A model generated the notes under the pieces. It was given only the letters and a program-made list of their open reading frames with translations, was not told the DNA's origin and searched no databases. The position numbers were made by a program, and so were the translations under genes. From Betaproteobacteria bacterium UKL13-2 (lineage in GTDB: Bacteria; Pseudomonadota; Gammaproteobacteria; Burkholderiales; Usitatibacteraceae), in contig CP012157.1 of assembly GCA_001602455.1 (NCBI GenBank), forward strand, positions 1,297,733 through 1,361,732: DNA of 64,000 nt, given 5' to 3'. Position 1 is the first letter of the stretch, and each line of letters starts with the position of its first letter. Of the stretch, positions 13,171 through 39,087 are shown piece by piece.

Positions 13171-16100
13171 TGACGGTGTACCCGAAAAAAATGTCTCGCC
13201 AGTCCAACCAGCGCATCAATCAGCTCGGGCACCTGCTTTTGCAGGTGGGTGCGCTCGTGCGCCGTGGCGGGACTTTTTGCACCAGGATCGCCTCTGCGGC
13301 GAAGGCAGGTCGGTACGCACTGCTTGCCTGCGCGTTCACCGCGTTCACCACGTTCACCACGCTCTTTGGCGCAACGGCGCAGGCGCAGGTGACAATGACT
13401 GGGTTGAAGGTTACGTCGCCCATCTTAACTGGGCAACCCGCAACGTTTGAAGTTAACTTTACTAATCCCCCCGGTAGTAGCAAAACCGTTTCTTTCACCT
13501 ACACCTTTCCCGCCGGCGTGGTCATTGCGGCAACGCCGGATGTAGCCAATCCATGTGATCCCGCTTTCCCGGGTCTAACAAGTGGCTCTTTCACAGCGCC
13601 CCCTGGGGGTAGCACTTTGACAGTGACCAACTTCACTGTTGGGGGCGGGTACCAGTGTCAAATACGAGTCAATGTCACCAGCGCCACACCAGCAACGTAT
13701 TCGCTACTCGTGTCCGCTCTCACGGCCACGAGCGGCTTTACCATTAGCGGGACTGCGACCGGTGCCTCATTGGTGGTGAATGGACGACCGACGTTAACGA
13801 AAGCCTTTAGTCCGACGACCATTGGGGTGGGGTCGCCCTCGACCTTGACCTTCACCATCACCAATCCAGCGTCGGTCGGTGCGGCGAGTGGCCTTACCTT
13901 TACCGACACTTTCCCGACTGGCATGGTGATTGCGGCCACACCGAACGTGGTTAATAGCTGCGGCGGGTCACCGACCATTACCGCCACGGCGGGGGCTGGA
14001 TCGATAGTGGTGGGAGGCACGGGGGTGAATGCGGCGGCGGGGCCCTCGACGTGTACGGTCACCGTTCAGGTGACCAGTCAGACGGCGGGGTTTTACCTCA
14101 ACGGGGCGGGGCAGATGGCGACCTCGACCAACCTGTTCAACGGGGTGACCAATCAGATCTTGACCGTGACCCAAGCGGGTTTGACGGCGGCCTTTAATCC
14201 CACGAGCATTGGTCAGGGCGAGACCTCGACCTTGACCTTTACCTTGACTAACGGGGCAGGCAACCCGGCGCAAAGTGGCATTAACTTCACCAACAGTTTA
14301 CCGACGGGGGTGACGGTGGCGGCATCGCCGAGTATCGCGTCCACCTGTCCGAGTGGTGTAGGCGCGGTAGCGGCCACCGGTGGAGCTAGCAGCATTACGG
14401 TGACGGGCGCATCGATGAGTGCCGGGCAGGCGACGTGTACGATTTCAGTGCCAGTGACCAGTCGCGTGGTGGGAACATACACCAACACCGCCGCCAGATT
14501 CTCTAGCCTAGCGCGCGTGACCAATAATGTTGTGGACACCACATTAACCGTCACCGCGAAGCCAACATTGACCAAAACCATCCGTAGCACTGCTAACAAC
14601 TCGGTTGGAGGGGTGGGGCTAAACGCAAACTTGACATGGACTATTGTCCTGCCGAGTGGTTTTTCGACCATTTCCGGCATTAGCTTCAACGACACGTTGC
14701 CGACTGGCATGGTGATTGCGACGCCGTTAGCCATCGCGGCAGACTGTAATAGCCCAACGGTAACGGCGACGGCGGGTGGGACGACGATTGCGGTGTCGGA
14801 CGTATTAGCCATTGCAGGTCGAACGTGTGGTATCACTGTGCAAGTTGTACCGGCGATTGAGGCGCCGGCAACATATCCGAGCCTAGCGTCAACCATCGCG
14901 AATTTGACGTCAACTATCTTCAATGGGTCGGTCGATGAGACCTATCAGGTGACCCAGGCGGGTTTGACAGCGCTTTTTAGTCCAGCGACCATTGGTCAGG
15001 GCGACACCTCGACCTTGACCTATACCTTGACTAACGGGGCAGGCAACCCGGCGCAAAGTGGCATTAACTTCACCAACAACTTACCGACGGGCGTGACAGT
15101 GGCGGGGGCGCCAAGCAATAGCTGCGGCGGGGTAACGACAGTCACGGCTCCGGTTGATGGTGAGACCATTACGGTGACGGCGTCGGTCGGTCAGTGGACT
15201 GACACATGTACGATTTCGGTGCCTGTGAAGAGTGGCGTCGCCGGAGCGTACACCAACACCGCCTCCCGCTTCACGAACCTAGCGCGCGTGACCAATAATG
15301 TTGTGAACCCCACATTAACCGTCACGCCGAAGGTGACCTTGTTCATGAGCTTCGCCCCCACGTTCGTCGCGAAGTCGCAGCCCGCGACGTTGACGTTTGA
15401 GCTGGTTAATGCGGCCGTGTCGATCGGGGGGAGTAATCAAACTGGCGTTGGCTTCACCAACACCTTACCGACAGGCCTAGTGGTCGCGGGGGCGTCAAGC
15501 AATAGCTGCGGCGGGGGGACAGTCACGGCTCCGGTTGATGGTGGGACCATTACGGTGACGGGCGTATCGATCGTTGCTGGGATTAACTGTTTTTTGTTGG
15601 TGCCGGTAAGAAGTATGACGGCGGGGGTGTACCAGAACACGCCGCAGAGCATCACGGCGGTCACGTCTAACGTCTTCAATAACACAACTACCCGAACCCT
15701 GACTGTGTGGGAAGCACCCACCGCCTCAGTTTCGTTTGCAGCGATGAACTTGGCGCTCAACGGGACGACCACGATGACCATCAGCGTCACCAACCCATCA
15801 CCCAATACGGTGGCGATGACAGGGGTGGGGTTCACCAACACCTATCCGTCGGGCTTGACGGGTGCGACCACGGCGACGATAACTGGGACGAACTGTACCG
15901 GGACACTGACGGCGACGTCGGGGAGTTTGGCGCTCACGGGCGGGACGGTTCCACCGAACACGACATGTAGCTACAGTGTGGAGGTGACCGGCACGACGGC
16001 GGGTGCGAACTCAAATAGCGCGGTGACGGTGACGAGTGCCAACGCACCGAGTGCGACGGCGGCCGCAACGACAGTGAATGTCTATGCGCCGCCGACGGTG

Positions 16101-19100
16101 GCCAAGGCTTTCAGTCCGGCGAGCATAGGGGTGGGTGCCACAACGGCGCTCACATATACCTTTACCAATCCTTCGAGCAATCCCGGCAACGTTACAAGTA
16201 TCGCAGTCAGCGACATTTTCCCCACGTCGCCAGGAGCAATGACCTTGTCCAACACGACTGTTGGGGGAAACTGCACTCCTGTGACCGTGCTGAATCAATC
16301 GGGTGGCGCTCTTGCGAGTGGCAATACTGGCGTACAGATTTCGGGGATTAGTTTGAGCGCCGGCCAGAGTTGTACCGTGACGGTTAATGTGACGGCGGGT
16401 ATCGCCGGTAGTTATAACAGCACCACGACGGCCCCGACCGCATCGGCGGCGGCGGGTACTGTTGCCTTGACGGGGGTGGGCGCGGCGGCGAGCGTGCCCT
16501 TAACGGTGGCGGTAGCACCCACCGTCTCAGTTTTGTTCGCGCCGACGAACTTGGCGCTCAACGGGACGACCACGATGACCATCAGCGTCACCAACCCATC
16601 AGCCAATACGGTGGCGATCACAGGGGTGGCGTTCACCAACACCTATCCGTCGGGCTTGACGGGTGCGACCACGGCGCAGATAACTGGGACGAACTGTACC
16701 GGGACACTGACGGCGACGTCGGGGAGTTTGGCGCTCACGGGCGGGACGGTTCCACCGAACACGACATGTAGCTACAGTGTGGTGGTGACCGGCACGACGG
16801 CGGGTGCGAAGTCAAATAGCGTTACGGTGACGAGTGCCAACGCACCGAGTGCGACGGCGGCCGCAACGACAGTGAATGTCTATGCGCCGCCGACGGTGAG
16901 CGCGAGCTTCTCGCCGACGATTATCAATTCTGGCGGCACGACGGATCTGAGCTTGACACTGACAAATCCGGCGGATAACCCCCCGGGTACGCTACAGATG
17001 CAAGTGAACAACACATTCCCGTCGGGCTTGACGTATCAATCTGTCGTCTCTATCTCGCCGACGGATTGCGCGCAGGTGGCGAACCCGATCAACGGCGGGG
17101 CTGGCGTTACCTTCACCACCATCGCCCGTGCGGCGGGCGCGTCGTGTACGCTGGCCGTGAGGACGACCTACACCGGGGTGCCGGGGACAATCACCAACAC
17201 GACCAACCCGCCAGTGTTTGTATCCCCTCCGGTAACAGTAATAGGCACGCCGGCTTCAGCTTCCTTCACGGTGAATACGGTAGCACCCACCGTCTCACGT
17301 TCGTTCGCGCCGACGAACCTGGCGCTCAACGGGACGACCACGATGACCATCAGCGTCACCAACCCATCAGCCAATGCGGTTGCGATGACAGGGGTGGCGT
17401 TCACCAACACCTATCCGTCGGGCTTGACGGGTGCGACCACGGCGACGATAACTGGGACGAACTGTACCGGGACACTGACGGCGACGTCGGGGAGTTTGGC
17501 GCTCACGGGCGGGACGGTTCCACCGAACACGACATGTAGCTACAGTGTGGTGGTGACCGGCACGACGGTGGGTGCGAAGTCAAATAGCGCGGTGACGGTG
17601 ACGAGTGCCAACGCACCGAGTGCGACGGCGGCCGCAACGACAGTGAATGTCTATGCGCCGCCGACGGTGAGCGCGAGCTTCTCGCCGACGAGTATCAATC
17701 CTGGCGGCACGACGGTGCTGAGCTTGACATTGACAAATCCGGCGGGTAACCCGGGTACGCTACCGATCAAAGTGGACAACACATTCCCGTCGGGCTTGAC
17801 GTATCAATCTTTCTCATCTGTAGATCCGGCCGGTTGCTCGCAGACGGTGACCTCGATCAACGACGGGGCTGGCGTTACCTTCACCACCATCGCCCTTGCG
17901 GCGGGCGCGTCGTGCTCGCTGGCCGTGAACACGACCTACACCGGGGTGCCGGGGACATTCACCAACACGACCGACGCGCCGGTGTTTCCATCCGCCCCTA
18001 CGGTAACCGGCACGGCGGCTTCAGCTTCCTTTACGGTGGTGGTAGCACCCACCGTCTCAGTTTTGTTCGCGCCGACGAACCTGGCGCTCAACGGGACGAC
18101 CACGATGACCATCAGCGTCTTCAACCCTAATACGGTTGCGATGACAGGGGTGGCGTTCACCAACACCTATCCGTCGGGCTTGACGGGTGCGACCACGGCG
18201 ACGATAACTGGGACGAACTGTACCGGGACACTGACGGCGACGTCGGGGAGTTTGGCGCTCACGGGCGGGACGGTTCCGCCGAACACGACATGTAGCTACA
18301 GTGTGGTGGTGACCGGCACGACGGCGGGTGCGAAGTCAAATAGCGTTACGGTGACGAGTGCCAACGCACCGAGTGCGACGGCGGCCGCAACGACAGTGAA
18401 TGTCTATGCGCCGCCGACGGTGGCCAAGGCTTTCAGTCCGGCGAGCATAGGGGTGGGTACTACAACGGCGCTCACATATACCTTTACCAATCCTTCGAGC
18501 AATCCCCCCGGCAATGTTACAAGCATCGCAGTCAACGACACTTTCCCCACGTCGCCAGGAGCAATGACCTTGTCCAACACGACTGTTGGGGGAACCTGCA
18601 CTCCTGTGACCGTGTTGAACCAATCGGGTGGCGCTCTTGCGAGTGGCAATACTGGCGTACAGATTTCGGGGATTAGTTTGGGCGCGGGTGCCAGTTGTAC
18701 CGTGAGGGTTAATGTGACGGCGGGTATCGCCGGTAGTTATAACAGCACCACGACGGCCCCGACGGCGTCGGCGGCGGGTACTGTGGCCTTGACGGGGACG
18801 GGCGCGGCGGCGAGCGTGCCCTTAACGGTGGCGGCGGTAGCACCCACCGTCTCAGTCTCGTTCGCACCGACGAACCTGGCGCTCAACGGGACGACCACGA
18901 TGACCATCAGCGTCTTCAACCCTAATGCGGTTGCGATGACAGGGGTGGGGTTCACCAACACCTATCCGTCGGGCTTGACGGGTGCGACCACGGCGCAGAT
19001 AACTGGGACGGGCTGTAGTACCGCCGATACACTAGCGGCGACAACGGGGAGTTTGGCGCTCACGGGCGGGACGGTTCCGCCGAACACGACATGTAGCTAC

Positions 19101-22100
19101 AGTGTGGTGGTGACCGGCACGACGGCGGGTGCGAAGCCAAATAGCGTTACGGTGACGAGTACCAACCCACCGAGTACGACGGCGGCCGCAACGACGGTGA
19201 ATGTCTATGCGCCGCCGACGGTGGCCAAGGCTTTCAGTCCGGCGAGCATAGGGGTGGGTGCCACAACGGCGCTCACATATACCTTTACCAATCCTTCGAG
19301 CAATCCCGGCAACGTTACAGGCATCGCAGTCAGCGACATTTTCCCCACGTCGCCAGGAGCAATGACCTTGTCCAACACGACTGTTGGGGGAACCTGCACT
19401 CCTGTGACCGTGTTGAACCAATCGGGTGGCGCTCTTGCGAGTGGCAATACTGGCGTACAGATTTCGGGGATTAGTTTGGGCGCGGGTGCCAGTTGTACCG
19501 TGAGGGTTAATGTGACGGCGGGTATCGCCGGTAGTTACAACAGCACCACGACGGCCCCGACGGCGTCGGCGGCGGGTACTGTGGCCTTGACGGGGACGGG
19601 CGCGGCGGCGAGCGTGCCCTTAACGGTGGCGGCGGTAGCACCCACCGTCTCAGTCTCGTTCGCACCGACGAACCTGGCGCTCAACGGGACGACCACGATG
19701 ACCATCAGCGTCGCCAACCCTAATGCGGTTGCGATGACAGGGGTGGCGTTCACCAACACCTATCCGACGGGCTTGACAGGTGCGACCACGGCGCAGATAA
19801 CTGGGACGGGCTGTATTACCACCGGGACACTGACGGCGACAACGGGGAGTTTGGCGCTCACGGGCGGGACGGTTCCGCCGAACACGACATGTAGCTACAG
19901 TGTGGTGGTGACCGGCACGACGGCGGGTGCGAAGTCAAATAGCGCGGTGAATGTGACGAGTACCAACGCACCGAGTGCGACGGCGGCCGCAACGACGGTG
20001 AATGTCTATGCGCCGCCGACGGTGGCCAAGGCTTTCACTCCGGAGACTATTGAGGCGGGTGTCGCCTCGGGGCTGATCATTTACGTGAGCAACCCCGGGA
20101 ATAATCCGGGCAACATTAACGATGTCGAAGTTGAAGAGGTCTATACGGGCACCTTGGTAAATGTCGCTGCGGCTTCTATCGCTTGTAGTGCGGGCAGCAG
20201 CGCAACCCTCACTGGTGGAATCAACGGGGGCAAGAGTGTAGGCATCAAGTTTGGCACGTTAACTCCTGGGGGGGGGTGTGTAATCACGCACTACGTAACT
20301 GCGACGAGCACCGGCACCTACTTCACGACGGCTCCGACCGCGACGGCGGCGGGGGGTACGGTGGCCTTGACGGGGACGGCGGTGAGCCGGACATTGACAG
20401 TACTTGCCCCCACGCTCACCAAGTCGTGGGGGACGGCGTCGATTGCTGACGGCACACCGACCACGCTGGTGTTTACGCTGACCAACACTGGCTCAAATCC
20501 GGCACAGAGCGGGATTGGATTTACCGAATCGTTGCCGACTGGCTTGCGGTTCACCGCAGCACCGGCTGTCACCTTTGGGGCGGGGTGCTCTGGTACGTCC
20601 AGCGTGGCTCAAGGTACGCCGGATACTGTCACGTTCTCTAACGTGGGAATCAACGCGGGCACAAACATTTGCACCATCACAGTCAACGGGGTTACAAACC
20701 GTAGCGGTCAAATCAATACGTCTTGCCCAGTCGCATCGCCGCCGGCGGCCTTCACCAATACCGCTGGACAAATCACCGGAATCACGCGGGTCAATAACGG
20801 CGTGACGCCGCAGTGTCTTGTGGTCACCACGCAGTCGCCCGCAATTGCAAAGGCATTTGTTACGCCCACCATCGCTGTGGGGGGCACCAGCCAGATTAAC
20901 TTCACGATCACCAACCCGAATTCGGTTGCACTGACGGGGGCAAACTTCACCGATACGCTAACGAACATGTTCATCAGCGCAACTGGTTCTGCGACTGGAT
21001 CATGTGTTGGTGCTTCGACAAATAGCTTTACCGCCGGCCAAACGGCTTTGAGCTTTACCGGGCTGACGATTCCCGCAAAAGTGGGATCAGTAGATGGATC
21101 ATGCACGGTCTCGATTGTTGTTCAGAGCAACACGCCGGGAACACTTCCCAATACCGCCAGCGGTGTCGCGAGTGCCCAAGCGGCCACTGGTGGGGTATCG
21201 AACACAGCCATACTCACGGTCACCGCGCAGTCGCCCGCAATTGCAAAGGCCTTTTCGCCGTCTGCCATTGCAGCAGGTGCCACCTCAACCATGAGCTTCA
21301 CCATTACCAACCCGAATTCGGTTGCACTGACGGGGGCAAACTTCACCGATACCTTGGTCAATATGAGTGTGGCTGGCGCACAAACCATCACGGGTTGCGG
21401 TGGCTCGAACTCCCTGACGAACGGCCAAACGGCTTTGAGCTTTACCGGGCTGACGATTCCCGCAGCAGGCAATTGCACCATTAACGTAACCGTGACATCG
21501 AGTACACCGGGCGTCCTTCCCAATACCGCCAGCGGTGTCGCGAGCGCCCAAGCGGCCACTGGTACGGCATCGAACACCGTCAACCTCACTGTATATGCAG
21601 CACCAACAATTGCAAAGGCATTTGTTACGCCCACCATCGCTGTGGGGGGCACCAGCCAGATTAACTTCACGATCACCAACCCGAATTCGGTTGCACTAAC
21701 GGGGGCAAACTTCACCGATGCGCTAACGAACATGTTCATCAGCGCAACTGGTTCTGCGACTGGGTCATGTGTTGGTGCTTCGACAAATAGCTTTACCGCC
21801 GGCCAAACCGGACTCATTACGATCGGGGGATTGACGATTCCCGCAAAAGTGGGATCAGTAGATGGATCATGCACGGTCTCGATTGTTGTTCAGAGCAACA
21901 CGCCGGGAACACATTCCAATCAGGCGAACGCCGTTTTCAGCAATGAAGCGCCCCCCAGCGCGCCATCGAACGCCGTCAACCTCACGGTCACCGCGCAGTC
22001 GCCCACGATTTCAATGGGGTTTCAATCTAATCCTATTGGGTCGGGTGCTACATCGAAGCTGACGATTACCATTAACAATCCAAACGCGGTATCAATGACC

Positions 22101-23936
22101 GTAACCAGCTTGACGAATAATTTCCCCACGTCGCCGGGCACGGGGCTGGTACGTGCGTCCATACCAAACCCATCGACCACTTGCGGTAGTGGTATCGTTG
22201 CACACTCACCATCTAGCGTAACCCTCACCGGGGGAAGCGTTCCTGCAAATGGATCTTGTACCGTCCAAATTGATGTGACGGCTGCGTCATCCGGCAGTTA
22301 TGAGAATACGATCCCTGTTGATGCGCTGAAGACCGGTTTGGGGAATAACACGACCGCTGCGGCTGCGACGCTGACGGTCAGCCCTGTGGCCAATGTCTCA
22401 GTGACGAAGACGGGCCCGGCCACGATTGCGTGGGGAACAACGTTGACTTATACGGTGGTGGTCGCGAACGCGGGGCCCGACGCGGCCAATCTGACAACGC
22501 TGACGGATAGTATTCCGGCGGCGCTCACAGGGGTTGACGCGGTTTGCGGTGGAGCTGTCGGTGGCGCGGCATGTGGAGCCGTCACTTTTTCTGGCAACAA
22601 TCTTGCGAGCACCATCACAACGCTGCCTGCCAATAGTTCGGTGACCTTTACCATCACCGGGACCGCGCCGGGCAATGGCACATTGAACAATAAGGCGACT
22701 GCCATTGTGCCCTTAGGTATCGCTGACCCCGATGACCTAGGCCGCACTGGCGCGGGGAACAACACGTCGGCAACGGTGACCACCGTCGTGAACGCGCCAG
22801 ATCTAACCATCGCAAAAACGCCATCTTCATCGATATTCACTGTGGGCACAAATGCGTTTTTTACGCTTACACCAAGCAATGTGGGCACATCCGCAACCAG
22901 TGGTGTGATTACGGTGGTTGATACGTTGCCGACGGGCTTGAGCTATGTGTCGGCGGGATCTGGCGGTACCGGTTGGAGTTGCGGCGTGAGCGGCCAGGTG
23001 GTGACGTGTACTAGCACTGGCATTATCGCCGCTGTTGGCACCGGCAACCCCGCTGGTGACCCAATTACAATCAATGTACAAGTCTTGTCCACTGCGGTGC
23101 CGAGCGTCACCAATTCGGTGACGATTTCCGGCGGAGGTGAACCTGCCGCCAACATAAGCAACAACAGCGCGCTTGCAATCGTGAGTGTTTCCAGTGCGCC
23201 GGTTAATACGTTCTTCCCCTCCGGTGCGCGCTCCGGCCCGCCAGGTAGTGCTGTCTTCTATCCCCATACCTTTGCGGCTGGCATCGCAGGGGCGGTGGCA
23301 TTCAGCGCCAGTCGGACGGCGGACCCAAACATTCCGGGTTGGGGCGTTCAGTTGTATCGTGACAATAATTGCAACGCGGTGCTGGATGAAAGCGATGGCA
23401 CGGTGGAGATATCCGGTACGTCGTTTACAGTGCTGGTGGGGGGCCAAGTCTGCCTGATTGTGAAGTCAATCATTCCCATTACAGCGCCGGAAGGTGTGGG
23501 GGCGAAGGATGTCATCAGCGTTACCGCAGCCTTTACGCCGTCTGGCGGGGCAGTGGCCACCCTATATGGGCTTGTTGACACCACAACCGTTGGTGGAGGG
23601 TTGGGGCTGGTGAAGTCGGTTAAGAACGTCACGCAAGCTGGCTCCGCAGGAACCTCCAACTCGGCAAAACCCGGTGACGAGCTGGAGTATGAGATCACTT
23701 ACTCCAGCGGGCTATATGCGCTGACGAAAATCGTTGTGTCTGATCAAATACCAGCGTACACGACCCTAGTAGTTGACCCACTAGTTAACGCACCGGGCTG
23801 TGTTGTCCCCTTGCCGAACGACATTACCAAGTGTACCGTTGTAGTGACGGGGGCGACAATTACTTGGACATTGGAGGGAACACTTAGCCCTAGTCAAACA
23901 GGCAAGGTCAGATTTCGGGTGACGGTCAACCAGTAG
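13167..23936 (+). CDS. giant exported repeat protein of DUF11/DUF7933-like domains (3589 aa)
   Basis: The ATG at 13167 overlaps the preceding stop as ATGA, indicating translational coupling to the barrel gene. A long n-region precedes a signal peptide (GRYALLACAF, cleavage near AQA at about residue 73). The rest is roughly 28 Ig-type domains with a common pattern: a KAFSP/SFAPT start, TxTxTNPN, a TDTLPxGL or TNTYPSGL strand, and often one Cys in the middle and one near the end, suggesting an intradomain disulfide. Residues about 849-2281 are an alternating array of nearly identical domains. Residues about 2556-2940 contain another repeated family, and the C-terminus has DUF11 units (VSVTKTGP near 3075, DLTIAKTP near 3212, LVKSVKNVT near 3480). 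No anchor, RTX or cell-wall motif is present. It is probably a long filament or adhesin on the surface; the function is inferred, not shown. Confidence 0.75.
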   Translation: MMTVYPKKMSRQSNQRINQLGHLLLQVGALVRRGGTFCTRIASAAKAGRYALLACAFTAFTTFTTLFGATAQAQVTMTGLKVTSPILTGQPATFEVNFTNPPGSSKTVSFTYTFPAGVVIAATPDVANPCDPAFPGLTSGSFTAPPGGSTLTVTNFTVGGGYQCQIRVNVTSATPATYSLLVSALTATSGFTISGTATGASLVVNGRPTLTKAFSPTTIGVGSPSTLTFTITNPASVGAASGLTFTDTFPTGMVIAATPNVVNSCGGSPTITATAGAGSIVVGGTGVNAAAGPSTCTVTVQVTSQTAGFYLNGAGQMATSTNLFNGVTNQILTVTQAGLTAAFNPTSIGQGETSTLTFTLTNGAGNPAQSGINFTNSLPTGVTVAASPSIASTCPSGVGAVAATGGASSITVTGASMSAGQATCTISVPVTSRVVGTYTNTAARFSSLARVTNNVVDTTLTVTAKPTLTKTIRSTANNSVGGVGLNANLTWTIVLPSGFSTISGISFNDTLPTGMVIATPLAIAADCNSPTVTATAGGTTIAVSDVLAIAGRTCGITVQVVPAIEAPATYPSLASTIANLTSTIFNGSVDETYQVTQAGLTALFSPATIGQGDTSTLTYTLTNGAGNPAQSGINFTNNLPTGVTVAGAPSNSCGGVTTVTAPVDGETITVTASVGQWTDTCTISVPVKSGVAGAYTNTASRFTNLARVTNNVVNPTLTVTPKVTLFMSFAPTFVAKSQPATLTFELVNAAVSIGGSNQTGVGFTNTLPTGLVVAGASSNSCGGGTVTAPVDGGTITVTGVSIVAGINCFLLVPVRSMTAGVYQNTPQSITAVTSNVFNNTTTRTLTVWEAPTASVSFAAMNLALNGTTTMTISVTNPSPNTVAMTGVGFTNTYPSGLTGATTATITGTNCTGTLTATSGSLALTGGTVPPNTTCSYSVEVTGTTAGANSNSAVTVTSANAPSATAAATTVNVYAPPTVAKAFSPASIGVGATTALTYTFTNPSSNPGNVTSIAVSDIFPTSPGAMTLSNTTVGGNCTPVTVLNQSGGALASGNTGVQISGISLSAGQSCTVTVNVTAGIAGSYNSTTTAPTASAAAGTVALTGVGAAASVPLTVAVAPTVSVLFAPTNLALNGTTTMTISVTNPSANTVAITGVAFTNTYPSGLTGATTAQITGTNCTGTLTATSGSLALTGGTVPPNTTCSYSVVVTGTTAGAKSNSVTVTSANAPSATAAATTVNVYAPPTVSASFSPTIINSGGTTDLSLTLTNPADNPPGTLQMQVNNTFPSGLTYQSVVSISPTDCAQVANPINGGAGVTFTTIARAAGASCTLAVRTTYTGVPGTITNTTNPPVFVSPPVTVIGTPASASFTVNTVAPTVSRSFAPTNLALNGTTTMTISVTNPSANAVAMTGVAFTNTYPSGLTGATTATITGTNCTGTLTATSGSLALTGGTVPPNTTCSYSVVVTGTTVGAKSNSAVTVTSANAPSATAAATTVNVYAPPTVSASFSPTSINPGGTTVLSLTLTNPAGNPGTLPIKVDNTFPSGLTYQSFSSVDPAGCSQTVTSINDGAGVTFTTIALAAGASCSLAVNTTYTGVPGTFTNTTDAPVFPSAPTVTGTAASASFTVVVAPTVSVLFAPTNLALNGTTTMTISVFNPNTVAMTGVAFTNTYPSGLTGATTATITGTNCTGTLTATSGSLALTGGTVPPNTTCSYSVVVTGTTAGAKSNSVTVTSANAPSATAAATTVNVYAPPTVAKAFSPASIGVGTTTALTYTFTNPSSNPPGNVTSIAVNDTFPTSPGAMTLSNTTVGGTCTPVTVLNQSGGALASGNTGVQISGISLGAGASCTVRVNVTAGIAGSYNSTTTAPTASAAGTVALTGTGAAASVPLTVAAVAPTVSVSFAPTNLALNGTTTMTISVFNPNAVAMTGVGFTNTYPSGLTGATTAQITGTGCSTADTLAATTGSLALTGGTVPPNTTCSYSVVVTGTTAGAKPNSVTVTSTNPPSTTAAATTVNVYAPPTVAKAFSPASIGVGATTALTYTFTNPSSNPGNVTGIAVSDIFPTSPGAMTLSNTTVGGTCTPVTVLNQSGGALASGNTGVQISGISLGAGASCTVRVNVTAGIAGSYNSTTTAPTASAAGTVALTGTGAAASVPLTVAAVAPTVSVSFAPTNLALNGTTTMTISVANPNAVAMTGVAFTNTYPTGLTGATTAQITGTGCITTGTLTATTGSLALTGGTVPPNTTCSYSVVVTGTTAGAKSNSAVNVTSTNAPSATAAATTVNVYAPPTVAKAFTPETIEAGVASGLIIYVSNPGNNPGNINDVEVEEVYTGTLVNVAAASIACSAGSSATLTGGINGGKSVGIKFGTLTPGGGCVITHYVTATSTGTYFTTAPTATAAGGTVALTGTAVSRTLTVLAPTLTKSWGTASIADGTPTTLVFTLTNTGSNPAQSGIGFTESLPTGLRFTAAPAVTFGAGCSGTSSVAQGTPDTVTFSNVGINAGTNICTITVNGVTNRSGQINTSCPVASPPAAFTNTAGQITGITRVNNGVTPQCLVVTTQSPAIAKAFVTPTIAVGGTSQINFTITNPNSVALTGANFTDTLTNMFISATGSATGSCVGASTNSFTAGQTALSFTGLTIPAKVGSVDGSCTVSIVVQSNTPGTLPNTASGVASAQAATGGVSNTAILTVTAQSPAIAKAFSPSAIAAGATSTMSFTITNPNSVALTGANFTDTLVNMSVAGAQTITGCGGSNSLTNGQTALSFTGLTIPAAGNCTINVTVTSSTPGVLPNTASGVASAQAATGTASNTVNLTVYAAPTIAKAFVTPTIAVGGTSQINFTITNPNSVALTGANFTDALTNMFISATGSATGSCVGASTNSFTAGQTGLITIGGLTIPAKVGSVDGSCTVSIVVQSNTPGTHSNQANAVFSNEAPPSAPSNAVNLTVTAQSPTISMGFQSNPIGSGATSKLTITINNPNAVSMTVTSLTNNFPTSPGTGLVRASIPNPSTTCGSGIVAHSPSSVTLTGGSVPANGSCTVQIDVTAASSGSYENTIPVDALKTGLGNNTTAAAATLTVSPVANVSVTKTGPATIAWGTTLTYTVVVANAGPDAANLTTLTDSIPAALTGVDAVCGGAVGGAACGAVTFSGNNLASTITTLPANSSVTFTITGTAPGNGTLNNKATAIVPLGIADPDDLGRTGAGNNTSATVTTVVNAPDLTIAKTPSSSIFTVGTNAFFTLTPSNVGTSATSGVITVVDTLPTGLSYVSAGSGGTGWSCGVSGQVVTCTSTGIIAAVGTGNPAGDPITINVQVLSTAVPSVTNSVTISGGGEPAANISNNSALAIVSVSSAPVNTFFPSGARSGPPGSAVFYPHTFAAGIAGAVAFSASRTADPNIPGWGVQLYRDNNCNAVLDESDGTVEISGTSFTVLVGGQVCLIVKSIIPITAPEGVGAKDVISVTAAFTPSGGAVATLYGLVDTTTVGGGLGLVKSVKNVTQAGSAGTSNSAKPGDELEYEITYSSGLYALTKIVVSDQIPAYTTLVVDPLVNAPGCVVPLPNDITKCTVVVTGATITWTLEGTLSPSQTGKVRFRVTVNQ
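14166..15330 (+). repeat. duplicated domain pair E1/E2 in the giant gene
   Basis: Two closely similar stretches begin at 14166 and 14949 with GTGACCCAAGCGGG-type sequence (VTQAGLTA at protein level) and stay highly similar for about 160 bases through NPAQSGINFTN. Their ends also share the segment encoding ARVTNNVV. They are older and more diverged than the array that follows. Confidence 0.75.
15711..20010 (+). repeat. alternating A-B/A-C domain super-repeat, 765-800 bp period
   Basis: Six A-type domains (APTVSVSFAPTNLALNG onward) start near 15711, 16513, 17279, 18041, 18838 and 19637. After each A comes a partner domain: B at 16086, 18408 and 19209 (TVAKAFSPASIGVG), C at 16884 and 17654 (TVSASFSP), and a diverged partner at 20010. 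The order is A-B, A-C, A-C, A-B, A-B, A-D. Long stretches of the A units are identical at DNA level, including silent positions, which points to recent duplication or ongoing gene conversion. Confidence 0.9.
20832..21995 (+). repeat. F-type domain triplication in the giant gene
   Basis: Three domains of about 370-395 bases start at 20832, 21228 and 21601. The first and third (IAKAFVTPTIAVGGTSQ) are almost identical at DNA level. The middle one is more diverged at its start but shares the block encoding NSVALTGANFTDTL. A fourth, more distant copy begins at 21996. Confidence 0.85.
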
Positions 23937-32010: not shown

Positions 32011-32160
32011 GTCCCCGCGTCGGCGGGGACCCAAGTTGACCTGCCCGCGACGGCGGGGACCCAAGTTGACCTGCCCGCGCAGGCGGGGACCCAAGTTGAC
32101 CGGCCCGCGCAGGCGGGGACCCAAGTTGACCTGCCCGCGTCGGCGGGGACCCAATTTCTC
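32011..32160. repeat. 30-bp palindromic repeat array 2 (REP-like), inverted relative to array 1
   Basis: Five head-to-tail 30-base units (32011, 32041, 32071, 32101, 32131), each with the core GGCGGGGACCCAAGTTGAC after a CCCGCG palindrome arm. The last unit decays after CCCAA. The units are the reverse complement of those in array 1. The array lies in the convergent gap between the MgtC-like gene and the CheY-like gene. The frame through it encodes repetitive PRRRGPKLT, which is a translation artefact. Confidence 0.9.
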
Positions 32161-32175
32161 TGGCTCGAAGTATCT

Positions 32176-32574
32176 CTAAGAATCGGTTGGCGGTTGCGAA
32201 TGGGGTGCTTTGAGAAACGCTTTCACCGAATCTGAAAAGGTTGCTACGTCGATGGGCTTTGACAAGTAGCCGTCGCAGCCAGCTTCACGCATCTTGGCTT
32301 CGTCGCCTTTCATGGCGTAGCCGGTGAACGCGACAATGGTCATTTGGCGCGTCGCGGAAGCGCGCTTTAGTCGCTGCGTGAGTTCGAGGCCGTTCATGCC
32401 AGGCATCTGAATATCCATCAATACGAGATCAGGCTGGAATACTGGAATTTTCGCCATTGCCTCAAGCGCATCGAGGGCGGATTCAACTTTGACGCCCGCT
32501 TGGTCAAGCAAAAATGCGGCGAGTTCTACATTCAGCACGTTGTCATCGACGATTAGAACGCGCATCGATGTCAC
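32176..32574 (-). CDS. CheY-like single-domain response regulator
   Basis: A 132-residue receiver domain with no output domain. The acidic pocket is at Asp10-Asp11 (LIVDD), the phospho-acceptor Asp54 is in VLMDIQMPGMNG, the switch Thr is in AFTGY, and the conserved Lys is in GYLSKPI. Its ATG overlaps the stop of the ethylene-receptor-like hybrid kinase (ATGA), so the two are translationally coupled. It is the natural phosphorelay partner of that kinase, perhaps as a diffusible effector or phosphate sink. Confidence 0.93.
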   Translation of the reverse strand: MTSMRVLIVDDNVLNVELAAFLLDQAGVKVESALDALEAMAKIPVFQPDLVLMDIQMPGMNGLELTQRLKRASATRQMTIVAFTGYAMKGDEAKMREAGCDGYLSKPIDVATFSDSVKAFLKAPHSQPPTDS

Positions 32575-35369
32575 GCGCTGCCCTTCGTTGCCGGTGCGGC
32601 ATCCGTTGTATTTGCTGTTTGATGGCGACGTTGGCGTAACTGCTCAATCATCGGTGCTAATGTCATCTGCGCTGATGCATCTCCCCGTTTGTTGATGACG
32701 GTGGCGACCGAGCGTGTGAGGGCGGCATACTCTTCGTCGGTCAGTAGCATGCTGGTCCAGATCAATACCGGAATATGTTTCCAGGTCGCCATCTGTTGAA
32801 GCGCCGCCAGCGTGGCGACGCCATCAAAGTCGGGCATGATCAAATCAAGAATAATGCAATCTGGCTGCAGTTGGTCCAACTGCGATAGCGCGCGGCGGGC
32901 GTCTTGCTCGCAGCGGACGTCGTAGGATAGGTTCTCCAGTGTCGTTCGCATTAGATCGAGGGCGAGTCGGTCATCGTCGATCACCAGCACTCTAGGCTGC
33001 TGGTATGAATTACGCTTGAACCTTGCCATTGCCACCACAATTTCGTCGAGCCGGATGGGTTTTCTCAATATGTCTGCGATGGAAAAGGCTACAACCGCGT
33101 CACCAATACCTAGCATCGTGATGCCGACCACAGGCGTTGATCGGTTGAGCTCATTGCCTCTGATCTCGGCGAGGACTTCCAAGCCCGGCCTTTCCCGCAA
33201 TTGTAGGTTGAGTGTCATGGCGTCATAGAGATACTCAGAGGTTCTCTCGGTTGCCACTCGCGCCGTTTGTGCAATATCAACCTGTGTGCCTTCGTCAGCA
33301 AGGCCGTTCGATAGGTCGCTGATTGGTTGCGGGCAGTCATCTATGACGAGGTAGCGCGTCGCCCCATTGTTGACTTTGATGCCGTCGAACAGGATGTGGG
33401 GAGTGCCCACCGGCTGATCTACTTCGCGGTGGATGCGATCCATGACAATGAAGAATACGCTGCCTTTTCCGACGACACTCTTTACGCCGACTTGGCCGCC
33501 TTGTGCCTCGACCAAGCGTTTGGTTAGAGCGAGCCCGAGGCCGGTGCCTTCGTGACGCTTGCTGTAGCTCGAGTCGAGTTGCTGGAATTCGACAAACAAT
33601 CGATCAAGGTCCCGCTCGGAGATTCCGGTGCCGGTGTCTTCGACTTCTATTCGGAATTTTTCCGCTCCTTCGGCGAGGGCACGCACCGTCACGCGCCCGA
33701 GATCCGGCGTGAACTTAATGGCATTTGACAGATAGTTGAACAACACCTGATTCATACGCGCCGGATCGATGAATAGATCGCCTAGGGTTGGATCAATTTC
33801 TGCGTTCAGCGTGATTTGCTTGGCGAGCGCCGATGGCTGTAGCACTTGGATCACATCGCCGACAAGCGCGGTGAGATTGACTGCACGACGGGAGAATTCA
33901 ACTTTGCCCGATTCGACTTTGGCTAAGTCAAGAATGTCGTTAATGAGGCTGAGTAAGTGTCTGCCGCTGCTGCTGATATGGCCGAGGAACTCGTGGTGCT
34001 TAGGCGAATCTGGCTGAACGGCGCCCGAGTGAAGCAAGTCAGAAAAGCCGATGATGGCGTTGAGCGGCGTGCGTAACTCATGCGACATGTTTGCCAAGAA
34101 CTGACTTTTCAGGCGATTTGCCTCCTGAATTTGCTCGTTCTCAGAGCGTAGTTCCCGGGTAATCCGTCGGGCGCATTCGGCTGCTTTTCGTTCAGTAATG
34201 TCGCGCACAATTTTTGATGCGCCGACAATGCGGCCTTGCGTGTCACGAATAGGTGAGACGGTGATGGAGACGTCAATCAATCGACCATCTTTCGTGCGCC
34301 GCACCGTTTCATAAGGTGCCACCGTCCCGCCACTTTCCATCGCTGCGATAACGCGCGCTTCTTCAACCCTGTGTTGTTCTGGAATCAAGAGTTGAATCGT
34401 CTGACCAATCGCTTCGGCTTGGGTGTAACCAAACATATTCTGCGCGGCGTTGTTCCAAGTGGTGATTAGGCCATCCAGAGTCTTGCTGATGATGGCGTCA
34501 TTCGAGTTTTCGACAATCGCGGCGAGTCGTTGTGATTCCACTTCGTTTTGCAAAATCTCGGTCATATTGCGCATGACCATCGCGCAGCCGATGATTTCGC
34601 CGTCGGCTGTGCGCGTTAGTGCTGAGCGCAAGTCCACGGTGGCGCCGATACCCTGCCGCGACCGAATGGCGATCAGGTGCGAATCGTTGATTGTGATCTC
34701 GCGTTCGATCATCACGTCAATCGGGTTTTCACTCAGCAACTCTGCAGCGCGACCGACTCTATCAAGCACTTGCCACACCATTCTGCCCTGTGCCTCAGAC
34801 TCCAGCCAACCGGTGAGGCTCTCTGCCATTGCATTCATTCGAACGACTTTTCCCTGACGATTCAAACTAATGAACCCGGCGCCGATGCTTGCAAGCGTGA
34901 TGGATAGGCTTTCGTTGACTTCGTTGAGTTGTTCTTCAGTAGTGCGGCGTCGCGCCATTTCACCTTCGAGGTTGCTGATGGCGATTTTTAGGCTTGCGGC
35001 GGTTGGGATGCTGAGCGCCTTGGGCATGAGCATCCAAATCAAGAATGCGGTGGCGACCGAAACAATTGCGGTCACAACTTTGGTCGCCGCTTGCACCGCG
35101 TAGTCTGGCTGCCAAATCGTCCAGATATCCATGACGTGCGTGATACCGCACGCAAAAATGAATGCGCTAAACATGAGCGCGACGCCATTTAATGTGCTTT
35201 CGGGCCGACGTCGGGTAAACGCGAGGATTGCAATCGGTATCGAAAAGTAAGACGCCGCGATAACGGCATCAGCAATCACCATCGACCAAAGCAGGCCAGG
35301 CGACCATGTAAAGCAATACCCATGAGGAAGAAAACTACTGCTTCCCAATAGTTGTTGCACGTAGGACAT
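32571..35369 (-). CDS. hybrid histidine kinase with ethylene-receptor-like N-terminal domain
   Basis: A 932-residue membrane sensor. Residues about 24-120 form three transmembrane helices resembling the ETR1 ethylene-binding domain: Asp34, Tyr41, Ile44, Pro45 (YFSIP), Ile71, Cys74 and His78 (FACGITH). A coiled segment follows, then two PAS domains (about 145-270 and 275-395), HisKA with His430 (NMSHELRTPLN), and the HATPase with DTGTGIS and GTGLGLAL. Two receivers follow. The first (about 671-780) has Asn where the phospho-Asp should be (TLNLQL). The second (about 792-910) is canonical (ILDLIMPD). AGGAG lies 6 bases before the ATG. It is coupled to the CheY-like gene. Binding of ethylene or copper is inferred from residue matches only. 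Confidence 0.9.
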   Translation of the reverse strand: MSYVQQLLGSSSFLPHGYCFTWSPGLLWSMVIADAVIAASYFSIPIAILAFTRRRPESTLNGVALMFSAFIFACGITHVMDIWTIWQPDYAVQAATKVVTAIVSVATAFLIWMLMPKALSIPTAASLKIAISNLEGEMARRRTTEEQLNEVNESLSITLASIGAGFISLNRQGKVVRMNAMAESLTGWLESEAQGRMVWQVLDRVGRAAELLSENPIDVMIEREITINDSHLIAIRSRQGIGATVDLRSALTRTADGEIIGCAMVMRNMTEILQNEVESQRLAAIVENSNDAIISKTLDGLITTWNNAAQNMFGYTQAEAIGQTIQLLIPEQHRVEEARVIAAMESGGTVAPYETVRRTKDGRLIDVSITVSPIRDTQGRIVGASKIVRDITERKAAECARRITRELRSENEQIQEANRLKSQFLANMSHELRTPLNAIIGFSDLLHSGAVQPDSPKHHEFLGHISSSGRHLLSLINDILDLAKVESGKVEFSRRAVNLTALVGDVIQVLQPSALAKQITLNAEIDPTLGDLFIDPARMNQVLFNYLSNAIKFTPDLGRVTVRALAEGAEKFRIEVEDTGTGISERDLDRLFVEFQQLDSSYSKRHEGTGLGLALTKRLVEAQGGQVGVKSVVGKGSVFFIVMDRIHREVDQPVGTPHILFDGIKVNNGATRYLVIDDCPQPISDLSNGLADEGTQVDIAQTARVATERTSEYLYDAMTLNLQLRERPGLEVLAEIRGNELNRSTPVVGITMLGIGDAVVAFSIADILRKPIRLDEIVVAMARFKRNSYQQPRVLVIDDDRLALDLMRTTLENLSYDVRCEQDARRALSQLDQLQPDCIILDLIMPDFDGVATLAALQQMATWKHIPVLIWTSMLLTDEEYAALTRSVATVINKRGDASAQMTLAPMIEQLRQRRHQTANTTDAAPATKGSA

Positions 35370-35634
35370 CTACTTCTCCTAAGGCAATAAAAGTTTTATT
35401 GAATATGGGCAACGCGCAACGGCGTTTTTGCAAAATTGTGAATACACTTTCCGAGCACAATCATACGCTGCCTTACTCAAGCGCTACTTTGTCCGATAGC
35501 GTACTTTTGTAGACAAAAAGTGCTGGACCGATGGCGAGTGCGCTCGTCTGAACACTTCATGAGGGCGCGTTCCAAATCGGGTGAGTGAGCGAGCACGGCA
35601 AAAGCGGAACGAGCCAAATTAGTTTTTTAATCGT

Positions 35635-38600
35635 TCAGGGCACGCTCCCTCGACGCAGCGAGCGTACGATGGATTGAACGAGATCTTCGACGGTGTTGGG
35701 TTTATAGACAATGTCGTGTATGCCCGTGTTCTGGGCAGCCGTGCGCAGCTCATCGGTGATGTAGCCGGAGGTGATGATGATCGGTAAGTCGGCACGAATA
35801 TGTTTTACATTCTGTGCGACATCGAGGCCTGATTGCCCCGGCATGTTGTAGTCGGATACGACTAAATCAACGTCCTCAGGATGCTCGCGAATCGCATCAA
35901 GAGCGCGTGCCGCTGAAAGGTATCCACTTGCACGAAAGCCACGCTTTTCCAGTATGCGTACGGTGAGGATGACCATCGCTTCATCATCGTCGATGTAAAT
36001 GACGTGCTGCCCTCTACCTTCGAGCACCGTTTGTGTCGGCAGCGCGGCGGCCATTTGAGTTGTTGAATCAGCGACCGCTGGTAGGTAGATGTCGAATCGT
36101 GTGCCTGCGCCGACATGGCTATTGACGACGATATGTCCGTGATGCACTTTGATGATGCCGTGAACGACAGCCAGACCTAGGCCCGTTCCGACGCCAACCG
36201 CCTTGGTCGTAAAGAAGGGTTCAAATATCCTCGCTTGTATCGCTTCATCCATGCCGCATCCATTGTCCGTCACAGATAGCAGCGCGTAGCGACCTGGGGA
36301 CAGCGTGGCGTTGGCCAGTGGTGACTCTTGCGCGATGCGAGTCTCAGAAAGTGAGATGACGATCTGACCTTCGCCGTTCGGCAGGGCGTGCCACGCGTTT
36401 GTGCAAAGATTGACGAGCACTTGTGAGACTTGCGTGGCATCGCATTTCACGATGATCTGTGGTGTATCAATTTTGGTGTCAAGTCGCGTCTTGGCCGGAA
36501 TCGTTGCGCGTAGTAGTGCGGCGGCTTCATTGATCAGAGGGAGTAAGGGCTGGGCCGCGAGGTCTTGAGTTTGGCGACGGCTGAAGGTGAGGATTTGCTC
36601 AACCAAGCGCTTGGCGCGCACTGCCGCTTTGTTGATTTCATTCAAGCTGAGTTGGATATGGGCGTTTTGCGCTGAATCTTCGCTGGCGAGTTTCACGTTA
36701 CCGAGAATGGCACCCAAAATATTGTTGAAATCATGAGCGATGCCGCCCGCAAGAGTGCCCAGCGATTCTATTTTTTGCGCCTCGCGGAGCTGTTGTTCAA
36801 GGCTCAGACGCACCGTCTCGGCCACGACTGCTTCGGTGATATCAGTAAAGGTCGCGACCACGCCGCTGGGTCTTGATTCGGTTGTCGAATCGCTGTGATC
36901 GAATATTGGTGCGGTGTTAATGGATATCCAGGTGCGTTGACCATCGGCTTTGTCGATGCCCATGATGACGTTAGTTTGTGCAACGCCGTCGCGAAGCGTG
37001 ACGAGCGCCGGGTGTGCGTCCCCACCAAATGGCGTGCCATCTTCGCGCACGGCACGCCATCGTGGGTCGAACCTGTTTTGCGTCATCATCTGGTTTGCGG
37101 TTAGGCCGAGAATCCGCTCAGCGCTGCGATTGCAGACAAGAATTTCGGACTTGTGGTTACGCAGAATGAAGCCTTCTTGAAGGGCGTCAATCGCAACGCC
37201 GAAACGCTGCTCACTGGCTAAAAGGGCTTCTTCCACGCGTTTGCGCTCGGTGATATCGCGTGAAACTGAAACCCAGTGGGTGTACCAACCTTTCTCGTTG
37301 GCGATTGGCGAAATTTGCATTTCCAGCCAAAACGCCTCCCCGGATTTTGTGTAGTTGATGACCTCCTCTCGCACCGGCTGCCATGCCATAAGCGCGGCGC
37401 GCACGCGGGCAAGTACGGCGTCGTCTGTTCGTGGGCCTTGCAACATGCGGGGCGTGTTCCCAAGCGCTTCTTCGCGCGTGTATCCGGTTCGTCTTGTGAA
37501 GGCCGCATTGACAAAAACGATTCGCGGGCCGGGTGCATCAACCGGCTCCGCCTCCGTGATTAGGACAATATCGTTTGTATTCGAGACGCTTGCTTCCAGT
37601 AGTCGTAAATGCTCTTCATGAGCGCGATGCGCGGTGATGTCGCTGATTGTGCCGATCACGCGATTCGGACGCCCCGCTGGGCTGCGAGATACGACTTTTG
37701 CGCGGATATGAACCCACTTCCATGTGCCGTCGGCGCAGCGCTCACGGTGCTCGTCCACGTAGTAGTCAATCTCGCCATCAATGATCGCTTGGAATTTTGC
37801 GCGTGCGCCGATCACGTCGTCTGGATGCAGGCGCGCTGTCCAATCAGCCATGTCGTCGGTCGCATTCGGTTGACTCTGGCCAAAAACATCGCGGTACAAG
37901 CGGGATACTGCGACCTTGTTCGTTCTCAAATCCCAATCCCAAACAGCTTCGCTGTCGCCTTCTAAGGCGAACTGCCATCGTGCTTCACTTTCACGCAAGG
38001 CGTCGCTGGCTGCGGCCGACTGCGCGGTCCAGTGGCGCTGTTGGCGAATAGCGTATCGGTATGCAGCGAATCCGAGTGTTAAGAAAATGGCCGTTTGTAG
38101 AAACGTTTTTCGCAGCCTCTGCCACCATGCCGACCAGACTTCAGCAACAGGAAATTCGACGAATAGTGTGACGGGAAACGATGGCAGGCGACGGAAGACG
38201 TTCAGATGCAGCAGACCATCGAGGCTACTCGCGCCCTCGACATTTCCACGCATCGGAAAATTGTTGTCGCTCAAGAATTGGGTTAGCGCACCCGCTTGAG
38301 GTTGCCCGTATAGGGCGTCAATCGAGGTGCTGCTCGGAATGGGGTAACGACTCAGGAGAAAGCCGTCATCTCTTAGCAGACCAAACGCGGCACGTTGTGC
38401 AATCGGCGTGTCGAGCCAAAAATGACGCAGGTACTCGTGGGGAAGATTGGCGCCGACGATGTAAGTTATGCCGCCATTGGCGTCACGGAGGGCACGCCGA
38501 ATTGGCACCATCGGCGTTGCGCTCAAGACAGAGAGGAAAGGCTGCCCCACGCTTATGTTTGCACCGGTCCGAAGTTCGGCTAACGACGTTTGAAATGACG

Positions 38601-39087
38601 GCTCGTGCCCCACTGAGGCACGCACAGCGCGTGGCGCAGAATTGGCTGATACCAACACATCACCACTTGAGTTCAATAATGTGACGTTGTAGAACTCTGG
38701 GTGGAGTCTTTTGAATCGCTTGAGGGCGGTATAGGCCAAATTGAGGTCAACCACAGTGCCGGTTGCGGTTAGCGCCTCGCTCAGGCCGCGTAAATCAAGC
38801 TCAATTCGATTGAAATACATATCAAGCGCACGCGCTTCAATTTCGGCGATTGACGTGAGATTTTCAAGTGCGGCGGCGCGCTCCTCGTACCACGACTCGA
38901 CTGAAATGAGACCAAGAAAACCGAGTGAGATCACCACCAAAACGGCCGCCATGCGGTGGAGGATCTGCTCGCCGCGCCGATTCAAGGCCGATACGGCGCT
39001 TCGCAGATTGGCAACGATTGTGCGCATTGAAACGGTAGGATGGCGTGAGTGAGTGGGATTGGTCGTTGACTCGCCTGAGTACTTCAC
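35635..39087 (-). CDS. multi-PAS hybrid histidine kinase with periplasmic sensor domain
   Basis: A 1150-residue sensor kinase. The first transmembrane helix is at about 46-65, and a periplasmic Cache-like domain runs to about 325 ([38 protein letters not shown]). The second helix is near 330-350. Three PAS domains follow at about 370-495, 500-630 and 635-760. The middle one has the LOV-like loop GNTPRMLQG but no flavin-binding Cys. The dimerisation domain has His785 ([14 protein letters not shown]), the ATPase part has DNGCGM and [12 protein letters not shown], and a receiver at about 1029-1145 has its Asp in VVSDYNMPG. The GTG start at 39087 is uncertain, since ATG at 39027 is possible. It is separated from the other kinase by 265 bases and may form a separate transcript. 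Confidence 0.88.

Follow-up and report, generated by a model that had tools for sequence, protein, structure and literature searches.

A hybrid histidine kinase with an ethylene-receptor-type sensor domain in Betaproteobacteria bacterium UKL13-2 and a conserved N-terminal His/Cys pair that may belong to its copper site

The window analysed here is a stretch of 64,000 nucleotides of the single 3.39-Mb contig (CP012157.1, completeness rating 100%) that makes up the genome of Betaproteobacteria bacterium UKL13-2. On its reverse strand, which carries all the features described in this paragraph, it encodes a hybrid histidine kinase of 932 amino acids (32571..35369), composed of an ETR1_N sensor, PAS domains, HisKA, HATPase_c and two receivers. 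The open reading frame (ORF), already delimited in a preceding sequence-only reading of this DNA, starts at an ATG that follows by 6 bases an AGGAG (35376..35380), the probable ribosome-binding site. The Pfam match to ETR1_N (PF25487) covers residues 26-121 (35007..35294) and includes an ETR1-type copper pair in helix 2, recognized by sequence comparison as I71...C74-G-I-T-H78 (35136..35159). A second motif, P15-H16-G17-x-C19-x-x-W22 (35304..35327), precedes helix 1 and is not covered by the Pfam model. Two PAS stretches follow, of which the better one corresponds to residues 281-391 (34197..34529). The kinase core is complete, comprising HisKA (33906..34109, 73 bits), with the phospho-acceptor His429 within SHELRTP, and HATPase_c (residues 535-643; 33441..33767, 87 bits). 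In the first receiver (33030..33350), the sequence LNLQL places Asn721 at the phospho-acceptor position, and in the second (32676..32990, identified by Pfam) Asp842 lies in ILDLIMP, both positions being those expected from receiver motifs. The replacement of Asp by Asn721 suggests that the first receiver is probably a pseudo-receiver that cannot be phosphorylated. The sequence-only reading had also coupled a CheY-like regulator to the kinase, which agrees with the response regulator gene found immediately downstream (32176..32574). It encodes 132 amino acids with a receiver only (PF00072 alone, Asp54), and its start overlaps the kinase stop codon by 4 bases (GTGA) in an operon-like arrangement.

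The proposal that the membrane domain is of the ethylene-receptor family was borne out by the profile search, in which the window kinase scored 116.1 bits with ETR1_N against a curated cut-off of 27 (E 9e-34), while the same profile gave no match in 14 control genomes. All seven residues required in ETR1 were present as predicted (D34, Y41, I44, P45, I71, C74 and H78). A BLASTP comparison with ETR1 1-129 aligned residues 32-123 with 37% identity (E 3e-18). The constant offset of 9 claimed for this alignment held up to His78, but after a 3-residue gap it became 6, so that ETR1 Lys91 corresponds to Lys97. This lysine was also aligned with K98 of the Azospirillum brasilense receptor AzoEtr1, a residue that is itself aligned with ETR1 K91 in PMC11819568. 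By the simple Kyte-Doolittle measure, three hydrophobic stretches were observed near the N-terminus, with peaks at about residues 40, 71 and 107, and Cys74 and His78 are spaced i,i+4 inside the second. A search of the Protein Data Bank with residues 1-130 returned no solved relative, the best match having an E of 0.89.

The conservation of these residues was followed in an alignment of 103 non-viral rows, the window protein included, each scoring at least 60 bits; the rows are mutually related and come from overlapping samples. The exact seven-residue set occurs in 68 of them. In one family of the alignment, f22 (L079, L081, L083, L086 and L088), Asp34 and Lys97 covary: the Asn/Arg combination is found in 4 of the 103 rows overall and Asn/Glu in L086, and it is possible that ethylene affinity is naturally tuned by this covariation.

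Among the tested relatives AzoEtr1 is the closest, with 42% identity over 142 amino acids, ungapped, in the ethylene-binding domain. A tblastn search of a plasmid collection with residues 1-153 retrieved 18 records, 7 of them from Azospirillum, including plasmid ABSP7_p1 of A. brasilense Sp7. This locus (L108) reads as a 525-aa receptor and a 135-aa regulator, lengths equal to those published for AzoEtr1 and AzoRR-etr1, and it carries D35, C75, H79 and K98 at the published AzoEtr1 positions (PMC11819568). In the same source, residues 1-130 of AzoEtr1 expressed in Pichia showed saturable 14C-ethylene binding, D35A and C75A, which correspond to D34 and C74 of the window protein, were made as variants predicted not to bind, and disruption of AzoEtr1 reduced biofilm formation. 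The Azospirillum and window systems share the D, C, H and K equivalents, the PAS and kinase modules, and a regulator that lacks an output domain and whose gene overlaps that of the receptor. They differ in that AzoEtr1 has one PAS and a kinase, with no receiver described, whereas the 932-aa window protein has two PAS stretches and two receivers. Moreover, the two regulators show just 29% identity over 83 amino acids, and this distant likeness indicates that the gene layout is common without close kinship. A nearer relative was found in a metagenome-assembled genome (MAG) of Rhizobacter sp. (L002), an uncultured source, with 60% identity over the first 150 residues. The tblastn matches of its hybrid kinase are colinear over residues 1-924, and the downstream response regulator is 59% identical over 118 amino acids to that of the window, so that the receptor and regulator layout is found in two relatives, A. 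brasilense and Rhizobacter.

SynEtr1 of Synechocystis and other cyanobacterial receptors share with the window protein the bacterial branch, one N-terminal Cys, and kinase-dependent signalling to a response regulator, although SynEtr1 is a light receptor too and its regulator enhances the transcription of a small RNA, neither of which has a sign in the window system. Plant ETR1 shares the three-helix copper/ethylene domain and the complete set of seven required residues. Its N-terminus carries CxC where the window protein has HxxC. It has GAF where the window protein has PAS (PMC12643061), and the main signalling target of plant receptors is a serine/threonine kinase (PMC11819568).

These likenesses, namely an ETR1_N match of 116 bits, the seven residues plus the lysine, the ungapped 42% identity to an ethylene-binding protein, and the matching gene layout, make it very probable that the window protein belongs with the bacterial ethylene receptors of the AzoEtr1/SynEtr1 type. 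The sensing of ethylene or a related small molecule suggested by the sequence-only reading is thus supported by the profile and by the likeness to AzoEtr1, while we infer copper and ethylene binding, the identity of the ligand, the direction of signalling and the output from knowledge of the family. In this mechanism, the three-helix membrane domain would hold Cu(I) on Cys74 and His78, Asp34 and Lys97 would form an ETR1-like polar pair, and the domain would bind ethylene or a closely similar small alkene. The ligand state may then alter His429 autophosphorylation, with the phosphate moving to Asp842 of the second receiver, to Asp54 of the co-expressed receiver-only regulator, or to both. Since the regulator has no output domain, it would have to act by protein contact and not by DNA binding. 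Other relay partners exist in the genome, which contains 40 receiver matches and seven Hpt matches spread over four ORFs, none of them tied to the ethylene-receptor gene.

Two other explanations of the sensor were weighed. The Cu(I)-binding domain could mainly be a sensor of copper, of redox state or of another Cu(I) ligand, ethylene binding in vitro being incidental. The copper ligands are indeed among the most strongly conserved residues, whereas Asp34, whose equivalent is a determinant of ethylene affinity in ETR1 (PMC13012798), differs in 11 of the 103 rows, and the carriers with a name include several from lake water, sludge or the sea. However, both Asp34 and Lys97 are kept in the window protein, and AzoEtr1 not only binds ethylene but, when disrupted, lowers biofilm formation (PMC11819568), which leaves this explanation unlikely. 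It is more improbable still that the protein is a sensor without ligand, kept for its kinase alone: degenerate domains do exist in the family, with 10 of the 103 rows without Cys74 or His78, but every required residue is intact in the window protein. As an ethylene receptor, it is an additional member of a type already known. It extends the small number of bacterial ethylene-sensing systems that have been tested by a hybrid kinase paired with a receiver-only regulator, and the possible novelty lies in the N-terminal pair. This HxxC pair, together with the phage proteins described below, is the part that could surprise a specialist.

The P15-H16-G17-x-C19-x-x-W22 motif ahead of helix 1, on which the sequence-only reading is silent, was seen in the alignment of relatives. 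Since the Pfam match starts at residue 26 and the motif also lies outside the profile that collected the rows, its conservation is not a product of those searches, except for two MAG loci and the 18 plasmid records, which came from queries containing the motif. Both C74 and H78 are kept in 93 of the 103 rows, and 92 of these 93 have both H16 and C19, whereas in the 10 rows that lost C74 or H78 (lesion rows) the N-terminal pair is present only once. The Fisher p of 4e-11 for this association is no true probability, because the rows are related. Of all columns with a conservation of 90% or more in the intact rows, H16 drops most steeply in the lesion rows (from 0.99 to 0.2) and C19 ranks fourth (from 0.99 to 0.3), while G17, W86, S104, F70 and A101 remain at 0.9 or more. 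The pair is kept in 44 of the 45 intact rows that are as divergent from the window protein as the lesion rows are. A tree was also built from the 103 rows with the copper-pair and motif columns removed; most of its forks are unresolved. On this tree, at least 8 changes were counted for the copper pair and 9 for the motif. The well-supported branches provided five independent pairs, and in these the motif moved in step with the copper pair in an average of 4.9 of 5; the corresponding values for four of the 13 control columns were 1.5 (P15), 1.0 (G17), 2.4 (W22) and 1.6 (Y90). Losses in close pairs strike both sites, as found for L196 (H16R, C74G) relative to the intact L169 (76% identity), L088 (H16E, C19E, H78F) relative to L079 (66%) and L195 (H16L, C74G) relative to L194 (59%). 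Moreover, both pairs are present in every one of the 14 rows that derive from named records, namely the two MAGs and 12 of the 18 plasmid records; four of these rows are cyanobacterial.

These results suggest that the copper site includes His16 and Cys19, which would precede helix 1 on the periplasmic face, either as additional ligands or as a site for copper loading. In this proposal, bacterial receptors would have a copper site with two extra ligands relative to the plant model, either as a 2-His/2-Cys site or as a second, loading site, replaced in plants by the N-terminal CxC, and relatives losing the helix-2 Cys or His mostly lose the pair. We put its probability at about 45%. Several observations weigh against it. 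In lesion rows, I71, P45 and I37 also drop to 0.2-0.4 (I71 to 0.2, the same as H16), which indicates some general decay, and the sign test p of 0.0625 is the floor for five pairs. L151 retains C74/H78 and has H16L and C19N, while L152 retains H16/C19 and has H78R. The rows dropped before the count add further cases: among five rows from viral contigs, which were retrieved with motif-containing patterns, both pairs occur in three and the copper pair without both H16 and C19 in two, and among seven non-viral rows below 60 bits, both pairs occur in one, neither in four and the copper pair alone in two. The N-terminus of L185, also dropped, is unaligned, with no HGxC in the other forward frames, and counting this row would change the figure to 92 of 94. 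Eleven loci yielding no row, G1011 (above the family cut-off over 26 profile positions) and six of the 18 plasmid records also stand outside the count. Finally, plant ETR1, which is not known to carry the motif, still binds copper and ethylene.

The extra-ligand proposal has to be compared with an intermolecular disulfide formed by Cys19 that holds the dimer, as proposed in cyanobacteria, with His16 as a structural turn residue only. Cyanobacterial receptors have one N-terminal Cys, against two disulfide-forming ones in plants, and the same role has been suggested for it in PMC6682694; by analogy with ETR1, the N-terminal segment should be periplasmic. A disulfide, however, explains neither the invariant His nor the loss of His16 and Cys19 along with the copper pair in lesion rows, of which 9 of 10 retain Gly17, all 10 retain Trp86 and half retain Pro15. 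It is therefore regarded as possible but rather doubtful. For plant receptors, published work describes a low-coordinate Cu(I) site with Cys65 and His69 and with Asp25 nearby (PMC13012798, PMC12643061, PMC6586836), and PMC13012798 states that no metal sites beyond the Cu(I) site and the nucleotide pocket have been definitely identified. No statement on a metal role for the N-terminal pair was found in the literature searched on these receptors, in which subscription journals were poorly covered, so that this is weak evidence of novelty. If His16 and Cys19 are part of the site, bacterial domains would be a better-ligated target for structure work, and the natural variants L196 versus L169 and L088 versus L079 would be ready-made controls; for the ETR1 membrane domain, structure, mechanism and Cu+ stoichiometry alike have been elusive for decades according to a 2026 review (PMC13012798).

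The aconitase of UKL13-2 shows 73-75% identity to its Burkholderia and Caballeronia counterparts and 55.6% to that of Shinella, eighth among the matches listed, from which the bacterium very probably belongs to the Burkholderiales. Its genome has a single ETR1_N copy. This genome is the only one with the domain among 13 of its genus (5 of the 13 at least 90% complete), and one of 25 genomes of its family has a match. In wider, evenly drawn samples, which overlap one another, the cut-off was exceeded in 24 of 399 genomes for the order, 12 of 369 for the class, 28 of 398 for the phylum and 28 of 385 for the class to which genome G870 belongs. The domain is thus patchily distributed and also plasmid-borne, and the window gene was probably acquired horizontally. 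In six contigs of congeners around acnA (L125-L130; L117 was left out), the regulator, receptor and upstream kinase genes were unmatched, L125 carrying just 2.3 kb downstream of acnA. No recent donor was visible among phages or plasmids, since no phage record matches residues 1-153 and the 18 plasmid records are all below 60% identity; base composition was uninformative as a sign of foreign origin (GC 0.54 for the gene and 0.56 for the window). Among the plasmids, p2 of Novosphingobium sp. ES2-1 (L110), typed as conjugative, carries an ethylene-receptor-like kinase and a response regulator near Cas9 and Cas1 genes.

ETR1_N proteins without a kinase were observed in phages. When viral contigs were scanned with the alignment of the domain, five (L200-L204) were seen to encode such proteins, of 118-182 amino acids counted from the nearest Met as a provisional start, and all above the Pfam cut-off (51-104 bits). 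Since the scan patterns include CGxTH and PHGxC, motif conservation there is not independent. A tblastn search from one of these proteins led to isolated Maribacter phages, namely to eight records that comprise Colly_1 and Molly_1 to Molly_5 (28% identity, E 4e-5), while two others gave no phage match by the same kind of search. The Colly_1 protein (L212:3947-4816) has 289 amino acids and scores 60 bits with ETR1_N, the Pfam search having been run on this protein and not on its Molly_1 counterpart (L213:3947-4816). In Colly_1, the gene stops 3 bases ahead of an N-acetylmuramoyl-L-alanine amidase gene, whose product matches endolysin families of PHROGs. In both phages, it lies directly before the amidase/endolysin gene, and the terminase gene follows about 1.2 kb further. 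In PMC8776804, the amidase is the sole Molly entry of the lysis-gene table, and the text speaks of proteins with 1-4 membrane helices near the lysins of these phages. No PHROGs family was found for the six ETR1_N proteins tested, and the literature searched yielded no paper joining phages and the ethylene-binding domain. It may be guessed that the phage protein has a holin-like or lysis-timing role.

Upstream of the receptor gene, across a gap of 265 bp and on the same strand, lies the gene of a 1150-aa protein that combines PAS, histidine kinase and receiver domains and has a dCache match below threshold (35635..39087). This protein has no close counterpart in congeners, the best match among those listed showing 34% identity over residues 202-1142, and 80% of it was covered by one of 2137 matching plasmid records. 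Searches for consensus promoters and terminators found 1 and 6, respectively, below the shuffled means of 4.4 and 8.6. Between the regulator gene and a convergent MgtC/DUF4010 gene, a 30-bp GC-rich tandem repeat of 4.7 copies was observed (32014-32154). Elsewhere in the window (5503-23936), two giant neighbouring ORFs encode 2555 and 3589 amino acids, the second with 23 DUF7933 repeats and DUF11 domains, and both are probably surface or secreted proteins.

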